Assembly (NCBI RefSeq): GCF_036885605.1
Contig: NZ_CP142523.1
Location: 4,526,001 to 4,590,000, forward strand
Reading direction: 5' to 3'
Source: Janthinobacterium sp. TB1-E2
GTDB lineage: Bacteria > Pseudomonadota > Gammaproteobacteria > Burkholderiales > Burkholderiaceae_D
Length of the DNA stretch: 64,000 nt
The notes beneath the pieces were generated by a model. It was not told the origin of the DNA. It saw only the letters and a list, made by a program, of their open reading frames with translations, and made no database searches. The position numbers and the translations under genes are program-made. Below are positions 33,995-40,888 of this stretch, piece by piece. How positions within the stretch are numbered: position 1 is the first letter of the stretch; each line of letters begins with the position of its first letter.

Positions 33995-34081
33995 GCGCGC
34001 CGATGACGGCCCAAGGCAGGCAGAATCAGGCATAATCGAGCCAGGATGACATCAATGCCGTGCAGGCCGCGAGGTGTGACA

Positions 34082-35410
34082 ATGCAGTTCGAGGATTTCG
34101 ACCTTTCCACTCCCGATACCGGGCGGCATGCCGGGGCGGCGCCTGACGCCGACACGCCGGCCGCCACGGCCGTGCGCCTGCAATACCTGCTCGACAATAC
34201 ACCCTCCATCATCTATTGCACCGTGCCCAGCGGCGACTTCAAGATGACGTTCGTCAGCAACAATGCCCTCAATGTCCTGGGCTACCAGCCCGAGGAGATG
34301 GTGGCCGACCCCAACTTCTGGTTCGACCACATCCACCCCGACGATGCGCCCGGCATTTTTTCCAGCCTGGCGCAGATCTTCGTCGAAGGCGCGCGCGCCT
34401 ATGAATACCGCTTCCGCGTGCACGACGGCAGCTACCTGTGGATGCACGACAGCCTGCGCCTCGTGCGCGACGAACACGGCGTGCCGTTCGAGGTGATCGG
34501 CTCGCTGACCGATATCACGGAACGCAAGCGCATGGAAGCGATGCTGCAGGCGCGCGGCGAAGAGCAGCAACTACTGATCAGCAAGTTGCAGGAAGCGCAC
34601 GACCAGCTGCTGCAATCGGAAAAGATGGCGTCCATCGGCCAGCTGGCGGCCGGCATCGCGCATGAAATCAATAACCCGATCGGCTTCGTCAACTCCAACA
34701 TGAGTTCGCTGCAAGGCTATGTCGGCACCCTGTTCGGCGTGATCGGCCAGTACGAGGAGGCGATGCGCGAAACGCCCGATGGCCCGGCCCTGGCCGCGCG
34801 CGTGGCCCAGGTGCGCGACCAGGCCGACCTCGCCTTCCTGCAGGACGACATGGTGGACCTGGTGCGCGAATCGATGGATGGCCTCAAACGCGTGCGCGAC
34901 ATCGTGCAGGCGCTGAAGGATTTTTCCCATGTGGGCGAGACGGACTGGCAAGTGGCCAGCCTGCACGCGGGCCTGGACAGCACCCTGAATATCGTCGCCA
35001 ACGAATTGAAATACAAGGCGCGCATCGAGAAACACTACGGCGAGCTGCCGCAGATACTGTGCCTGGCCTCGCAGCTGAACCAGGTGTTCATGAACCTGCT
35101 TGTCAACGCGGGCCAGGCCATCAGCAGCGATGGCGTGATCAGCATCCGCACCGGCCACGCCGGCGACTGGGTGTGGGTGGAGATCGGTGACACGGGCGCC
35201 GGCATCGCGCCCGAGCACCTGAACCGCATCTTCGAACCGTTCTTCACCACCAAGGCCGTGGGCAGCGGCACGGGCCTGGGCCTGTCGCTGTCGTACGGCA
35301 TCGTCAACAAGCACGGCGGACGTATCGAGGTAGCCTCGGAAGTGGGCCGTGGCACGCGCTTTACCGTGCACCTGCCCGTCACGCCGCCGGCGGCCCCGCC
35401 AGCGCCCTAG
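34082..35410 (+). CDS. PAS-domain sensor histidine kinase
   Basis: A 442-aa cytosolic histidine kinase. A PAS domain with PAC (about residues 30-150) is followed by a short coiled coil, the HisKA H-box with phospho-His194 ([11 protein letters not shown]), and an ATPase domain (about 320-430) with N, G1 (GDTGAGI) and G2 ([14 protein letters not shown]) boxes. The H-box wording is shared with the kinase at 36767. The ATG at 34082 is preferred for its gaggt box over an in-frame ATG at 34046. It faces the five-gene signalling operon with 10 bp between stops. No membrane segment. Input signal unknown. Confidence 0.9.
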   Translation: MQFEDFDLSTPDTGRHAGAAPDADTPAATAVRLQYLLDNTPSIIYCTVPSGDFKMTFVSNNALNVLGYQPEEMVADPNFWFDHIHPDDAPGIFSSLAQIFVEGARAYEYRFRVHDGSYLWMHDSLRLVRDEHGVPFEVIGSLTDITERKRMEAMLQARGEEQQLLISKLQEAHDQLLQSEKMASIGQLAAGIAHEINNPIGFVNSNMSSLQGYVGTLFGVIGQYEEAMRETPDGPALAARVAQVRDQADLAFLQDDMVDLVRESMDGLKRVRDIVQALKDFSHVGETDWQVASLHAGLDSTLNIVANELKYKARIEKHYGELPQILCLASQLNQVFMNLLVNAGQAISSDGVISIRTGHAGDWVWVEIGDTGAGIAPEHLNRIFEPFFTTKAVGSGTGLGLSLSYGIVNKHGGRIEVASEVGRGTRFTVHLPVTPPAAPPAP

Positions 35411-35420
35411 CCTTCCCGCC

Positions 35421-36770
35421 CTAGCCTTCCTTGACGGGCGCGTACACGCGGATGCTCAGACGCCCGCCATTCTTGCCTTCGAAATCGAGCAGCTGGGAAA
35501 TCACGCGGGCCGTCAGCACGTGTTCGGCCGCCAGCAGCATCAGGCCATCGCGGCTGATCAGGTCGCGCGACAGCACCATGCCCGGCTCCAGCTGGCCCGA
35601 CAGCACGGTCAGGTCGCGCGCCGGCGGCTCCGTTTCATCCATGATGCTGCGGAAAGCGGCCACGACGGCCGGGTCGTAGCGCTTGCCGACGCTGTCGTAG
35701 ATCAGGGTCCGCGCTTCCTCGGCGCGCAGGCTGCGCTGCACCATGGCGCCGATCTGCAAGCCATCGTAGTCCGACGCCAGCGCCAGGATGCGCGCGCCCA
35801 TCGGAATGGCCAGGCCCACCAGGCCATCGGGGAAGCCGCCGCCGTCGAAGCGCTCGAGCTGCGAGCGCAGGATCACGGAAACGGCGCGCAGCTCGTCGAG
35901 CGCCATCAGCAATTGCTCGGCGCGCAGCGGATGCTTGCGGAAGGCGGCCAGCTGCTCGCCCGTCCAGGCGCTGGCCGGCAGTTCCAGCACGTCGTCGCTC
36001 AAGCTGAGCTTGCCGATATCCTTGAGCAGGGCCGCGATGAACACGTCGCGCGCCTCCTGCCCTTCCAGACCCAGCGCCAGCGCCAGCTTGCGCGACAGCT
36101 CGGCCACCCGCCGCGCATGGCCGGCCAGCTTGCCGCCGCGCATTTCGATCAGGTTGGAAAACACCTTGATGGTCGTCACGAACGTCGCCTTCAGGCGTTC
36201 ATTGGCCGCCTGCACCTCGTCGTGCGACTGTTTCAGCTGCTGCGTGCGCGTGGCCACCTTCGCTTCCAGGCTGGCGTTGAGCGCCTGCAGCTCCACGTTC
36301 TGGCTGGCCGTCAGCGCTTCGAGGCGCAGTTTTTCCTGCTCCAGCGCGCGCCGTTCCAGCGCGTGGCGCACCACCAGCACGATATCGTTCTCGTCCCAGG
36401 GCTTGGTCACGTAGCGGTAGATCTCGCCCTGGTTGATGGCGTCGAGGATGGACTGGATGTCGGCATAGCCGGTCAGCAGCAAGCGTATGGTGCCGGGCCA
36501 GCGCTGGCGCACCTGGGCCAGGAATTGCGCGCCATCCATGTGCGGCATGCGCATGTCGGAGATGACCAGGTCCACCGTCTCGCTCTCGAGCAGGGCCAGG
36601 CCGGCCGCGCCGCCATCGGCCGTCAGCACGCGGTAGCCGTGCGGACGGAACAGCCGCCGCAGCGACGACAGGATATTCGGTTCGTCGTCGACGCACAGGA
36701 TGGTGGGCGGCGTGGCCGCGGTGCTGGCGCTGGTACTGATGCTCATGCTCATGCTGTCCTGTTCGGTCAT
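35421..36770 (-). CDS. Response regulator with degenerate HD-GYP output
   Basis: A 449-aa response regulator. The receiver (residues 23-140) is intact (Asp28/Asp29, phospho-Asp72, Lys123). A coiled region leads into an HD-GYP-like domain (about 195-375), followed by a small module (395-440). Several HD-GYP metal ligands are replaced: the HD pair reads LLKDIGK (His to Lys250), the HH pair reads SQ before LERFDGGGFP (GYP to GFP), and the later Asp is Ser333. His218, Asp251 and His280 remain. It is probably not an active c-di-GMP phosphodiesterase and may be a binding scaffold. Last gene of the operon, overlapping the kinase gene by ATGA. Confidence 0.88.
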   Translation of the reverse strand: MTEQDSMSMSISTSASTAATPPTILCVDDEPNILSSLRRLFRPHGYRVLTADGGAAGLALLESETVDLVISDMRMPHMDGAQFLAQVRQRWPGTIRLLLTGYADIQSILDAINQGEIYRYVTKPWDENDIVLVVRHALERRALEQEKLRLEALTASQNVELQALNASLEAKVATRTQQLKQSHDEVQAANERLKATFVTTIKVFSNLIEMRGGKLAGHARRVAELSRKLALALGLEGQEARDVFIAALLKDIGKLSLSDDVLELPASAWTGEQLAAFRKHPLRAEQLLMALDELRAVSVILRSQLERFDGGGFPDGLVGLAIPMGARILALASDYDGLQIGAMVQRSLRAEEARTLIYDSVGKRYDPAVVAAFRSIMDETEPPARDLTVLSGQLEPGMVLSRDLISRDGLMLLAAEHVLTARVISQLLDFEGKNGGRLSIRVYAPVKEG

Positions 36771-38248
36771 GGTGCGACGGCCTGCGCCTGGCGCACGGGC
36801 AAAGTGATGCGGAAGGTGGTGCCGCTGCCGATGATGCTGCGCACGTCGATGCGGCCGTGATGCTTTTGTACCGTCGTGTAGGCCAGCGACAGGCCCAGCC
36901 CCGTGCCCTTGCCGACGGCCTTGGTGGTAAAGAACGGATCGAAGATGCGCGACAGGTGTTCGGGCGCGATGCCGCCGCCCGTGTCCTCGACCTCGATCCA
37001 CACTTCCGTCGCGTTGTCGCTGCCCGTGCGCAGGGTGATGCGTCCGCGCTCCTCGTTCATGGCGTGAGCGGCGTTGACGACCAGGTTCATGATCACCTGG
37101 TTCAGCTCGGAAGGCTGGCATTCGATGTCAGGAATGTCGCCATACTCGCGCACCACGTCGGCCTTGTACTTGACCTCGTTATTCACGATATTGAGCGTGG
37201 TATCGATGCCCTGGCGCAGGTCGGCCCAGACCCACTCCTGGTGCGCATCCGTGCGCGAAAAATCCTTCAGGTCCTGCACGATGCGGCGCACGCGCGAAAT
37301 GCCTTCCTTCGACTCGCCCATCAGCATGGGAATGTCGGTACGCAGGAAGTCCAGGTCGATCTGTTCGCGCAGCGCCCGCAGGCGCGCCGCCACCACGGCG
37401 TCGGCGACGGCCGGCTCGGCTTCCTCATAGGCGTCGAGCATGCTGAACAGGTCATCCAGATAGCCTTCCAGGGTGCCGACATTGGAAAACACATAGCCAA
37501 TGGGATTGTTGATCTCGTGCGCCACGCCGGCGGCCAGCTGGCCGATCGAAGCCAGTTTTTCCGACTGCAGCAGCTTTTGCTGGGCCAGCGACAGCTTGCT
37601 GTTCAATTCCGTCAGGGCCAGGTTACGCTCGCGCAATTCCAGGTCGGCGATCTGGCGCTGGCGGATATCGTCGGCCAGGCGTTCGTTCATTTCGGCCAGC
37701 TGGGCAGTGCGCTCGGCCACCAGGTGTTCCAGGTTGTCGTGCGCCTTGCGCAGCGCCAGTTCCGCCAGGCGCCGCTCGCTCACGTCGCGCAGGGTTTCGA
37801 TGGCGCCCACCAGCCGGCCCTGGCGGTCGCGCAGGGGCGCCGCCGTGAAATGCAGCCAGTGGCCGTCAGGGCCGATATCGGGAAAGAAATCCTCGGCCTC
37901 AAAGGCGCCTGGGATCACGGAAGAGCGCTTCAGCTTGCCAAGGTAGCGGTCATTTTCACCGAGCGCGATGTCGTCGGCCACCAGCAGGTCGGCCAGGCAG
38001 GCGCGCGGCTGCCGATAAAACGCCTTCCAGTGGTCGCGCGTGCCGACCATCTCGGCGGCCGTAAAGCCCAGCAGCTGTTCGCAGGCGCTGTTCCAGTGCG
38101 TCACCACGTGCTCCGTGTCGATGGCGAAAGTGGCCACGGGATGGCCGTCGAAAAAGGCCGATAGCGCGATGGTGTCGCCCTGGCGGCGTTCCGGCGTGGC
38201 GGGCAGCGCCTGCCCTGCGTCTGTTTCCATGGCCTCTTTCTTGTTCAT
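36767..38248 (-). CDS. PAS-domain sensor histidine kinase
   Basis: A 493-aa soluble histidine kinase. PAS/PAC (about residues 28-160), a long coiled coil (about 165-225), the HisKA box with His244 ([11 protein letters not shown]), then an ATPase domain with DTGGGI and [13 protein letters not shown] boxes. Its H-box is nearly identical to that of the plus-strand kinase at 34082, so both may feed the same response regulators. Both ends overlap neighbours by ATGA: upstream with the HDOD gene, downstream with the degenerate HD-GYP regulator. Confidence 0.9.
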
Positions 38249-39084
38249 GCCAGCATGATCCGCGACATTTCATCGAAGGTGTGTTCCGTTTGCCCCAGCA
38301 GCGCCAGCCAGGCCTGCTCGTCCAGCGCGACGCTGCGCCAGCCCGCCGGCGACAGGGGCGGCACCAGCGCATCGTCGACGCCGGCCAAGTCGAGCGCCAG
38401 GGCGACGGCATTGGCCAGGTGCACGGCCAGCGGCAAGCCGCCCGCTTCCAGCCGGTCGATGCTGTGGTGGTCGGCCACCGCCTGCTGTATCGCCTCGGGA
38501 AACTTCCAGTAGGCGGCCAGGGCGCTGCCCACCTGCGCGTGATCGATGCCGATGACGGCCAGTTCCGCATCGGCCATCTGGCAGTCATGCGCCTGGCGGT
38601 AGCTGCGCACAAGCGCATGCTCGGCCGGGAAGCGCGTCACCAGCACCAGGGTGCCCAGGTCGTGCAGCAGGCCTGCCGTGAACGCCGTTTCGGGATTGAC
38701 GCGCAAGTGCGGCGCCAGCAGGCGCGCGGCGATCGCCGTGGCCAGCGAGTGGCGCCAGAACGCCTGGAAATCGAAGCCGCCGCTGACGGGCGCGAAGCTG
38801 CCCGTCAGGGCGCAGGCCGTGACGACGGTGCGGATGCTGTGAAAGCCCAGCACGGAAACGGCTTGCGGGATGCTGGTGACCTTCGATTGCATGCCGTAGA
38901 ACGAGGAATTGGCGATGCGCAGGGTCTTTGCCGCCAGGCCCTGGTCCAGCTCGATCTTTTGTGCCAGCACGTGCACGTCCGTGTCGTCCTGGTCCATGCT
39001 CGACAGCAGCTCCAGCACCACCACGGGCAGCGAAGGCAGTTCCTGTATCTGGCGGATGATATGTTCAAAACTGAGCCGTGTCAT
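38245..39084 (-). CDS. HDOD domain protein
   Basis: A 279-aa protein made almost wholly of an HDOD domain (about residues 5-215), recognised by LPSLPVVVLELLSSMDQDDTD, the LAAKTLRIANSSFYG block and GFHSIRTVVTACALTG. HDOD domains are HD-like folds usually without catalytic activity, common in signal transduction with histidine kinases and diguanylate cyclases. A C-terminal tail of about 60 residues follows. Third gene in the signalling operon, with ATGA overlaps at both ends. Confidence 0.9.
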   Translation of the reverse strand: MTRLSFEHIIRQIQELPSLPVVVLELLSSMDQDDTDVHVLAQKIELDQGLAAKTLRIANSSFYGMQSKVTSIPQAVSVLGFHSIRTVVTACALTGSFAPVSGGFDFQAFWRHSLATAIAARLLAPHLRVNPETAFTAGLLHDLGTLVLVTRFPAEHALVRSYRQAHDCQMADAELAVIGIDHAQVGSALAAYWKFPEAIQQAVADHHSIDRLEAGGLPLAVHLANAVALALDLAGVDDALVPPLSPAGWRSVALDEQAWLALLGQTEHTFDEMSRIMLA

Positions 39085-39413
39085 GTGGCGCCCCCTTGCC
39101 GGTAGCGCTGCAGCAGTGCCAGCAGTTCGGCCCCGGCGGAATCGGGCGGCGTGGCGCGGAACAGCACGGCCAGCCGTTCCAGGCGGCGCAAGCGTTCCTG
39201 CTCGGCATGCGCCTGCGCGGCGGGGTCAAGCACCTCGTCCATGACGACGCGGCAGCTCTCCACATTGCGCCTGCGCAAGGCCGTCAGGTTCGCCGCCGTC
39301 AGGGTGGCCCCCTGTGCCAGCAGCACGGTGCCGCTGGCATCGCTCAGCGCCTGCGCCAGCACCATGCCTTCCTGCGCCTGTTCCATGGAAATCTCGCGTC
39401 CGCCTTCACTCAT
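39081..39413 (-). CDS. Small protein with GMVL module
   Basis: A 110-aa soluble protein. Residues 16-57 (starting GMVLAQALSDASGTVLLAQG) resemble the repeated accessory module found in HD-GYP proteins, and the same module is seen at the end of the degenerate HD-GYP protein of this operon (396-440). The rest is Arg/Leu/Ala-rich helix. ATGA overlaps link it to the response-regulator gene before and the HDOD gene after. A partner or adaptor role in the phosphorelay is likely by position; no named family is assigned. Confidence 0.7.
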   Translation of the reverse strand: MSEGGREISMEQAQEGMVLAQALSDASGTVLLAQGATLTAANLTALRRRNVESCRVVMDEVLDPAAQAHAEQERLRRLERLAVLFRATPPDSAGAELLALLQRYRQGGAT

Positions 39414-40276
39414 GTGCCCTCCCCATGGCGGCTCAAGGTGACGAGGCTGCCGCGCGAGCGCGAATGCAGGCCCATCGGATGGACGGCCACGGCATACGGC
39501 TGGCCATCGATGGCGGCCAGGCGGGGCGCGCCCTGCCCGTCGAACAGCTGCGGCAAGACGATCGCCGCCTCGTTGCCCAGCAGGGCCGCGCCCCGTTCGA
39601 ACAGGTTGGCCGCCGCCGCGTTGATGAAGGCGATCATGCCGTCTTCATCGAGCCCGATCACGGGCAGCGGCAAAAATTGCAGCAATTCGCGCGCGATGCC
39701 CAGGCTGACTTCGTCGCGGCTGATCTGGTGCTGCTGCTGGCGCACCAGCGCCTGCATGGCCGCATTCGCCGCCGCCAGCGCCTGGTTGGCCTCGCGCAGC
39801 TGCGCATTGAGGCGCACATTGTCGTCGTCGATACCCTTCAGGCGGAAGGCTTCGGCGATATGCTCGCGCAGCTGATGGTCTTCCCAGGGTTTGGTGAGGA
39901 ATTTGAAAATGGCGCCCTCGTTGACGGCGTCCGTGACGGCTTGCAATTCCGTATAGCCCGACAGCATGATGCGTATGGTTTGCGGACACAGCAGCTTGGC
40001 CTTGCGCAGGAAGTCGGCGCCCAGCATGCCGGGCATGCGCTGATCCGACACGATCACGTCGACCGTATGGCTGGCCAATACGTCCAGCCCTTCCTGGCCG
40101 CCGTTGGCCGTCAGGATATGGTAGCCATCGCGCCGCAGCAGCCGCTTGAGGGAAGCGAGGATATTCGGCTCGTCATCGACCAGCAGCAAGGTGCGCGGCG
40201 GGGCCACGGCCTGCTGCCCGGCATCCACCGCCAGCGCCGCAGTACCCGGCATGCCATGCTCGTCGTGCACATCCAT
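39410..40276 (-). CDS. Response regulator with PAS-like output
   Basis: A 288-aa regulator, first gene of the operon. The receiver (about residues 28-145) is intact: Asp34/Asp35, phospho-Asp78, Lys129. A coiled linker (about 150-190) leads into a PAS-like domain (about 200-285), recognised from LPLPVIGLDEDGMIAFINAAA. There is no DNA-binding or enzymatic output. The start ATG at 40276 has a gaggat box. Gene order and overlaps suggest it acts with the downstream kinase and the HDOD protein. Confidence 0.88.
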   Translation of the reverse strand: MDVHDEHGMPGTAALAVDAGQQAVAPPRTLLLVDDEPNILASLKRLLRRDGYHILTANGGQEGLDVLASHTVDVIVSDQRMPGMLGADFLRKAKLLCPQTIRIMLSGYTELQAVTDAVNEGAIFKFLTKPWEDHQLREHIAEAFRLKGIDDDNVRLNAQLREANQALAAANAAMQALVRQQQHQISRDEVSLGIARELLQFLPLPVIGLDEDGMIAFINAAAANLFERGAALLGNEAAIVLPQLFDGQGAPRLAAIDGQPYAVAVHPMGLHSRSRGSLVTLSRHGEGT

Positions 40277-40423
40277 CGGACCATCCTCTCATCGCCATGG
40301 CGAAATCGGAGCTTGCCTGGAGGGGGAATCTGCCGCACGTGACAGTCTTGCGAGTCTTGCGCGGCAGCCAGCTTGCGTTGAAATTATACGACTAAATATT
40401 CCCGTATGACACTAATCCGGCAC

Positions 40424-40888
40424 TTATCCGCGCCGCGCCGGACAAGGCGTGTCGCGGTAAAACACAAAGCCGCCCAGGCCGATGGCCTTGGTATCGGCGT
40501 TCACGCCATACACCAGCGTGCTCTTGTCCGCCTCAATGCGCAACAGGTTCATATGTTGGACGATTTGCGCGTGCGACAGTTCCAGCGATGGCGTCGGCGC
40601 CAGTTGCAAACGCAGTTCGGACGCGGCGCCATCGTACGCCCAGCGGCCCGGGTTGAAAAAGGCGAAACCGCCATCGAAACGCAGGCTGCCATCCTTGAAC
40701 TGGGTCAGGCAAATGCCGGGAAATTCGCTGGGCGGGTTGTACCAGGTGGCGGCCACGGCGGCATCGGCAGGCGTCTTGCCCGGCATCTGCATGCTGGCTG
40801 TGCCATTGTTTCCGCCCAAGCCGGCGCAACCGGCCAGCGCCAGCGCGCAAGCCAGAGCGCCCGCGCGCGTGATGAATATCATGTGCAT
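40424..40888 (-). CDS. Lipoprotein of unknown function
   Basis: A 154-aa protein with a lipoprotein signal (lipobox LAGC, Cys about residue 21). The mature part is about 130 residues with two further Cys (PGICLTQF and DTPCPA) that may form a disulfide and a beta-rich pattern (GSLRFDGGFAFFNPGRWAYDG). The ATG at 40888 has an aaggggac box; an in-frame ATG at 40882 is less favoured. Stands alone, between the signalling operon and rhlE. Family not recognised. Confidence 0.75.
   Translation of the reverse strand: MHMIFITRAGALACALALAGCAGLGGNNGTASMQMPGKTPADAAVAATWYNPPSEFPGICLTQFKDGSLRFDGGFAFFNPGRWAYDGAASELRLQLAPTPSLELSHAQIVQHMNLLRIEADKSTLVYGVNADTKAIGLGGFVFYRDTPCPARRG

Follow-up and report, generated by a model that had tools for sequence, protein, structure and literature searches.

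Gene content of the cluster

The window analyzed here is a 64,000-nucleotide stretch of the genome of Janthinobacterium sp. TB1-E2, a bacterium of soil and water, whose 6.31-Mb genome forms a single contig (NZ_CP142523.1; positions 4,526,001 to 4,590,000 of the forward strand). The minus strand of the window carries, between positions 40276 and 35421, a five-gene operon encoding, in this order, a response regulator with receiver and PAS domains (REC-PAS), a small protein referred to as GMVL, an HDOD protein, a PAS-containing histidine kinase, and a further response regulator with a predicted degenerate HD-GYP domain (REC-HD); a second histidine kinase converges on the operon from the plus strand. 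The features are the following, with positions counted from the first letter of the window:

39410-40276, minus: REC-coiled coil-PAS response regulator, 288 amino acids (Response_reg, E 2.8e-22; PAS, E 0.0012, under the cut-off)
39081-39413, minus: GMVL protein, 110 amino acids (alignments, structure model, similarity to the RNA polymerase (RNAP) beta' and beta subunits and to MoeA)
38245-39084, minus: HDOD protein, 279 amino acids (PF08668, E 3.9e-58; PDB 3m1t, E 8.5e-34)
36767-38248, minus: PAS-HisKA-HATPase histidine kinase, 493 amino acids, H-box AHEINN (Pfam; hydropathy)
35421-36770, minus: REC-coiled coil-HD-GYP-GMVL response regulator, 449 amino acids, HD-GYP domain predicted to be degenerate, NosR family (REC and HD_5; NF053512)
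36018-36023, minus: K250-D251 of this regulator, H-D in active HD-GYP enzymes (common to all 10 same-genus rows, 8 genomes)
35856-35861, minus: Q304-L305 of this regulator, H-H in active HD-GYP enzymes (alignment to PDB HD-GYP chains)
35442-35591, minus: GMVL module as the tail of REC-HD, residues about 394-443 (profile from small GMVL proteins only)
34082-35410, plus: second PAS-HisKA-HATPase kinase, 442 amino acids from the preferred start, converging on the operon (Pfam)
40383-40412, minus: candidate sigma-70-like promoter, GTGTCA-18-TATAAT, in the intergenic gap ahead of the first gene (consensus match only)

All four junctions of the operon are ATGA overlaps, seen as tcat on the plus strand at 39410-39413, 39081-39084, 38245-38248, and 36767-36770, and the positions and frames given for the cluster in an earlier interpretation made from the letters of this DNA alone (the sequence-only reading) were found to be correct. 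The REC-PAS receiver retains its aspartate motif (VSDQRMP), the HDOD protein reaches 196.6 bits with PF08668, for which the gathering score is 22.9, and the GMVL protein is built of a barrel-like module (residues about 3-59) and C-terminal helices with an LFR...YR motif. No membrane-spanning stretch is apparent in the hydropathy of the operon kinase. Since Pfam assigns no DNA-binding or sigma-like family to any of the six proteins of the cluster, an output based on proteins or nucleotides is a fair reading, in line with the earlier proposal of an output other than DNA binding; Pfam likewise detects no GGDEF, EAL, or FIST domain in them.

The two kinases, which both contain a PAS domain according to Pfam, share 29 of 40 residues in the H-box, 58 of 106 in the dimerization and histidine phosphotransfer (DHp) region, and 195 of 431 (45.2%) overall, for which the previous term "near-identical" was an overstatement. 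The start of the second kinase at 34082, already favored in the sequence-only reading, is better than that of the longest open reading frame at 34046, because the beginning MQFEDF is kept in 7/7 same-genus relatives examined and the stretch upstream is broken in two relatives, one of them having an in-frame stop and another lacking the ATG at the position of 34046. The convergent stop codons of the second kinase and REC-HD lie 10 bases apart. Both are covered by a direct repeat of 12 bases with a period of 14, CCCTAGCCTTCC, whose copies lie at 35405-35416 and 35419-35430.

Gene order and the GMVL-HDOD pair

At E <= 1e-60, a search for the HDOD protein in 145 genomes of the same family found 107 places, spread over 75 of the genomes; 100 of these places were examined, including the paralogue in the own genome, six same-genus paralogue places were left out (G123, G072, G092, G109, G005, and G048; G and L numbers denote genomes and loci), and the operon of the window itself stands outside the 100-locus counts. 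Both this sample and a set of 80 named loci were collected by way of HDOD and thus favor this HDOD subfamily, and the loci are partly non-independent, some named loci being the same contigs as others (e.g., L234 = L043, L236 = L039) and species of the same genus being closely related. The full cluster, with REC-PAS and REC-HD around HDOD, is present at 33 of the 100 family loci, in 32 genomes and 13 genera; tblastn finds GMVL in 24 of these clusters and the operon kinase in 31. With start codons in the relatives set by rule and denominators falling below 33 where tblastn missed a gene, four-base overlaps occur between REC-PAS and GMVL in 18/24, between GMVL and HDOD in 21/24, between HDOD and kinase in 11/31, and between kinase and REC-HD in 26/31. 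Such overlaps are usual at three junctions, not at HDOD/kinase, and because they recur across the 33 full clusters the ATGA overlaps of the window are not a matter of chance. The unit of two receivers, HDOD protein, PAS kinase, and GMVL protein put forward in the sequence-only reading is therefore borne out in its domains, and its gene order, whose lack of conservation would have counted against that reading, proves to be conserved. The equal stoichiometry that had been deduced is unsupported, because an overlap suggests translational coupling and not equal yield, and because that at HDOD/kinase is kept in only 11/31.

A homologue of the second kinase is present near 20 of the 33 full clusters; in 16 of these it converges on the cluster and in 4 it points the same way, in keeping with the earlier assumption that the converging kinase belongs to the neighborhood. 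Purifying selection acts on each of the six genes within the genus, with ratios of nonsynonymous to synonymous substitution rates (omega) of 0.11-0.44 in three pairs; in comparison with L047, from another genus, omega is 0.32-0.66.

Beyond the family, a NosR-family profile was applied to 274 genomes of the class (own genome included) and 14 control genomes, and regulators above the curated cut-off were obtained in 25/274 and 0/14, respectively. Of the 26 class genomes with a match at E <= 1e-100, 20 were examined, the own genome and G255, G372, G365, G146, and G377 being left out. The full order with GMVL is found in L166 and, with inserted genes, in L168; L169 and L178 have REC-PAS, GMVL, HDOD, and REC-HD with no kinase detected between them, L164 and L179 have the order with GMVL not detected, and the other 14 of the 20 loci have fragments of the order or REC-HD alone. 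Among the 80 named loci the order recurs, e.g., in Undibacterium, Duganella, Rugamonas, Rhodoferax, Polaromonas, Noviherbaspirillum (with an insertion), and Sulfuricella. The cluster is not of fixed composition: an extra receiver, which the window does not have, comes after REC-HD in all but 3 of the 26 full clusters from other genera and is seen, e.g., in L045, L046, L062, L069, and L166 (176 amino acids in L166), and in L086, L101, and L102 an extra kinase and receiver stand between REC-PAS and GMVL, as if a two-component pair had been taken in.

The GMVL and HDOD genes form a pair. By a short module model, which gives lower bounds (GMVL in L224, L241, and L276 is seen only by the full model), the gene immediately before HDOD is GMVL in at least 83/100 family loci and at least 57/80 named loci, with a four-base overlap in 72/83 and 41/57, respectively. 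HDOD follows 181 of 182 small GMVL frames, a redundant set taken mostly from HDOD-selected loci. Conversely, a search of 299 genomes from the phylum that used GMVL alone, as a profile built from GMVL proteins beside HDOD genes, gives 14 places in 11 genomes at E <= 1e-8; HDOD is the next gene on the same strand at 14/14, of which 12 are outside the own genome, and the four-base overlap is present at 5/14. In the own genome, the GMVL profile marks three places at E <= 0.1, namely the REC-HD tail and two small proteins, each immediately preceding an HDOD gene of this subfamily (in the operon and in the paralogous pair described below), while no GMVL was found within the 1.5-kb flanks of six other HDOD loci examined, out of 11 HDOD matches genome-wide. 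The pair also occurs without the rest of the operon, and because all 14 GMVL places precede HDOD it is likely to be older than the operon, with the exact overlap varying at a distance. A natural HDOD-GMVL fusion was not encountered among 278 six-frame, stop-to-stop frames containing GMVL, 99 of which carry a REC-HD protein and 179 neither HDOD nor REC-HD; 19 of the 179 exceed 260 amino acids and are probably open frames extending upstream.

The paralogous pair of the own genome, at 5.662 Mb (G000:C1:5661967-5663141; L057:7968-9148), has a four-base overlap. Just upstream of it lies a divergent kinase that by eye has a hydrophobic N-terminus and the H-box HEINTPVG, and a divergent kinase beside the GMVL-HDOD pair recurs in many family loci. 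GMVL-HDOD neighbors were also seen in contigs labeled Planctomycetota (L219, L235, L249, and L257), which may come from impure bins; the pair may extend beyond a single phylum.

Neither the GMVL-HDOD pair nor the presence of its module in the REC-HD tail was found described in the literature searched, subscription journals being largely outside its reach, and no title or abstract describing the operon, or HDOD together with two-component genes, was found, one of the searches having returned mostly unrelated papers. It is this pair and this shared module that appear to be new here; in its wiring, the cluster varies on two-component networks of many components, already known, that include a degenerate HD-GYP regulator. 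A GMVL partner encoded directly upstream of HDOD in many species, whose module also ends a degenerate HD-GYP protein of the same operon, offers a concrete experimental handle.

The GMVL module and the REC-HD regulator

In the alignment scan, no Pfam family matches the GMVL protein of the window at E <= 0.1, and the Pfam scan of the six proteins gives it only a chance-level match, to RIX1 (E 0.15). DUF3391 (PF11871) matches 3 of 51 GMVL members, with a best E of 0.0066, the window protein having no match to it at E <= 0.1; in NCBIfam only the NosR tail is matched (E 4.1e-5). A profile built solely from small GMVL proteins matches the tail of the window REC-HD with 26.4 bits (independent E 5.2e-6) as well as 99 REC-HD frames across the loci examined, many of them redundant, and in the whole-genome search this tail is found with E 9.6e-5.

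In the predicted structure of GMVL (mean predicted local distance difference test score, pLDDT, 78), short strands and one helix at the N-terminus are followed by two helices. Profile searches of PDB sequences with two alignments, which share species and are thus not independent, place RNAP beta' on top (E 6.6e-5 and 3.6e-5), with RNAP beta following at 0.0076 and 4.8e-5; MoeA, at 0.21, comes up with the first alignment only. Comparison of the model by VIA-align, in which unmatched models typically peak at Z 7 to 8, gives Z 9.6 for MoeA (1.3-1.4 A over 56 residues) and Z 8.7 for RNAP beta' (1.8 A over 59 residues); Foldseek returned no match at E <= 0.001, the rows shown being nearly all RNAP and MoeA chains. 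The VIA-align matches span residues 1-59 or so, and the helices at 64-105 are outside them. Profile similarity and predicted fold thus agree on an RNAP beta'/MoeA-type module, and for approximately the first 59 residues of GMVL the predicted fold is that of small domains found in these proteins, of the sandwich-barrel hybrid motif type. The likeness to these domains comprises the predicted fold and sequence similarity over residues about 7-58, whereas GMVL is free-standing, has a helical tail, and is paired with HDOD. Because MoeA matches as well as or better than RNAP beta', no function can be read from the fold by itself.

REC-HD matches NF053512 over positions 1-422 of 422 with 571.7 bits, against a curated cut-off of 400, and is thereby a member of the NosR family, whose NCBIfam name is "response regulator c-di-GMP phosphodiesterase, NosR family" (c-di-GMP, cyclic dimeric guanosine monophosphate). 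Its model (mean pLDDT 84; predicted template modeling score, pTM, 0.51) has its best Foldseek matches among HD-GYP domains, e.g., those of PA4781 and DvhD, with PDB entries 4r8z, 9rbz, and 4mcw among them, so that an HD-GYP fold is predicted. At the seven ligand positions, taken in part from the alignment to PDB chains, the pattern is H-K-D-H-Q-L-D, i.e., the HD dyad is represented by K250-D251 and the double histidine by Q304-L305, in the window as in all Janthinobacterium rows; both sets of ligands of a catalytic HD-GYP domain are altered. From these residues, REC-HD is a degenerate HD-GYP regulator in which catalytic residues have been lost. The receiver aspartate D72 is invariant (36/36). 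All seven ligands are kept in 7 of 62 aligned REC-HD rows, the window being included and duplicates present; the Sulfuricella regulator (locus L202) is one relative with a full set. The operon hence provides a natural series of one regulator, from a full ligand set to a heavily degenerate one, in a gene order that is largely unchanged, which allows asking whether an ancestral enzyme turned receptor or scaffold. An active phosphodiesterase as the default for the window protein was rejected on the basis of the ligand changes. The genome has 12 matches to HD_5.

A putative phosphorelay and its alternatives

The cluster would be best explained, with a probability of roughly 0.55, as a phosphorelay of two kinases and several receivers whose hubs are non-catalytic proteins of the HD superfamily, probably within the c-di-GMP network. 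Two soluble PAS kinases of one family, with an H-box as in NosK, would respond to a cue in the cytoplasm by phosphorylating the two receivers encoded beside them. The output would not be DNA binding; it would be exerted via HD-superfamily proteins that are no longer, or not necessarily, enzymes, namely HDOD with its translationally coupled GMVL partner and REC-HD with its own GMVL tail. Phosphorylation could alter the dimerization of REC-HD through its long coiled coil and thereby change the partners that are bound in physical complexes by the HD/HDOD-GMVL hubs. The phenotype affected would probably be c-di-GMP-controlled surface attachment or motility, via binding of c-di-GMP or via restraint of an unlinked active enzyme. 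The interpretation given in the sequence-only reading is in part supported by the findings on the cluster; it had missed the degenerate HD-GYP site, the GMVL module at the end of REC-HD, and the occurrence of the GMVL-HDOD pair on its own. A tentative and rather doubtful extension is that GMVL and HDOD form an undescribed two-protein effector, in which free GMVL would dock on HDOD as the tail would dock in cis on the pseudo-HD-GYP domain, phosphorylation of REC-HD making the hubs exchange or compete for one partner. Were this so, the result would be a kinase-controlled adaptor swap that involves neither an enzyme nor DNA binding.

Precedents exist for each of these steps. In the Hno network of Shewanella oneidensis, two kinases converge on the HnoD/HnoB set, where HnoB, an EAL enzyme, is held in check through contact with the degenerate HD-GYP regulator HnoD (PMC6335343). 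Two kinases, several receivers, and a degenerate HD-GYP protein are common to both systems, whereas the present one has no EAL enzyme among the six proteins and no helix-turn-helix regulator, and includes the HDOD-GMVL pair. DvhD (PDB 9rbz), a non-catalytic c-di-GMP receptor of the HD-GYP type, resembles REC-HD in the replacement of HD dyad and double histidine and in a long helical stalk before the HD domain, and it is reported not to hydrolyze c-di-GMP (PMC13090378); it is a membrane receptor, whereas the window protein is, by its sequence, a response regulator with a GMVL tail. The HDOD proteins SadB, GsmR, and HdpA are described as having no phosphodiesterase role and as acting in motility or attachment, and SadB binds c-di-GMP (PMC6543031); HDOD of the window stands alone and is coupled to GMVL and two-component genes, whereas SadB adds a YbaK-like domain. 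In the NosP-NosK-NosR system of Burkholderia, NosK, a HEINN kinase, phosphorylates NosR, a REC-HD-GYP protein of the same family with a degenerate site (PMC12570481); the cluster differs in the absence of FIST/NosP and in the presence of PAS kinases, the additional REC-PAS, GMVL, HDOD, and the second kinase.

Several observations weigh against the phosphorelay. The c-di-GMP link is drawn from family resemblance, the six proteins having no GGDEF or EAL domain, and the YbaK-like domain of SadB means that c-di-GMP binding need not lie in HDOD (PMC6543031). In Vibrio cholerae, neither motility nor biofilm changed when VC1087, an inactive REC-HD-GYP protein, was overexpressed (PMC4212101), which speaks against a strong phenotype. 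The GMVL model has a pTM of 0.43, and a docking mode is not visible in it; GMVL is also the least constrained of the six genes, with the highest omega in each pair. No GMVL partner is recognized by the module model in 17 of the 100 family HDOD loci, nor by tblastn in 9 of the 33 full clusters, and near 13 of the latter no homologue of the second kinase was detected, some being cut by contig ends. The sole small GMVL frame not directly before HDOD (L112:3932-4246) is located about 1.9 kb upstream of it.

These 13 clusters, together with the separate transcription of the second kinase, would also fit an abutment of two unrelated systems, the five-gene operon and an independent plus-strand kinase. 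This is unlikely: a homologue accompanies the other 20 full clusters in both orientations, whereas RhlE, MlaD, and lipoprotein neighbors are seen only in seven same-genus loci of the 100 (an RhlE-like gene of 49-51% identity is also near five named loci, L207, L216, L232, L268, and L277), and in L135 and L164 a kinase most similar to the second one occurs where the operon kinase is missing or replaced by it. That GMVL and HDOD act in transcription, an RNAP beta'-like module letting HDOD engage or decoy a polymerase-binding factor, would account for the profile similarities to beta' and beta and for the fold match to beta', but MoeA matches the fold equally well or better and none of the six proteins has a DNA-binding or sigma-like family, which makes it very improbable.

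The name and score of the NF053512 match, the rows with a full ligand set, and the HD-GYP domains at the top of the Foldseek matches could be taken to indicate that REC-HD works as a c-di-GMP phosphodiesterase under the control of phosphorylation, with the other genes in accessory roles. Against this stand lysine for histidine in the dyad and QL for HH in 10/10 same-genus rows, the failure of the structural match DvhD, which lacks these ligands, to hydrolyze c-di-GMP (PMC13090378), and the inactivity of VC1087, which has no HD dyad (PMC4212101); such an enzyme is improbable here. The same family match, the H-E-I-N-N motif shared with NosK of B. pseudomallei (PMC12570481), and the one FIST protein of the genome might alternatively speak for a nitric-oxide system, in which NosP from elsewhere, or heme bound by PAS, would feed a NosK/NosR-like pair. 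This is quite unlikely as well, considering that the sole FIST match (E <= 0.001) is at 3.157 Mb, 1.4 Mb from the cluster and in an operon of its own, that none of the six proteins matches FIST, that heme binding is not readable from these sequences, and that NosK is described as having no recognized sensor domain (PMC12570481), whereas both kinases here have PAS. Membership in a NosP system was rejected, the FIST gene being located elsewhere and the kinases carrying their own PAS domains. The FIST/NosP-type gene (G000:C1 about 3156480-3158695; L197:6480-8695) is flanked by a REC-HD-GYP regulator on one side and a large hybrid kinase on the other; that regulator has motifs intact by eye and scores only 142.7 bits with NF053512. 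The name "NosR family" should therefore not count as evidence of nitric-oxide sensing here, and neither should it count as evidence of phosphodiesterase activity.

Upstream of the operon, the candidate promoter has 10 of 12 consensus matches; between 35300 and 40500 there are 2 such sites, compared to a mean of 0.6 in shuffled sequences, and the other of the two falls inside the operon. Further upstream, a small lipoprotein-like gene with a signal-peptide-like start, as judged by eye, occupies 40424-40888 on the minus strand and is seen at same-genus loci only.

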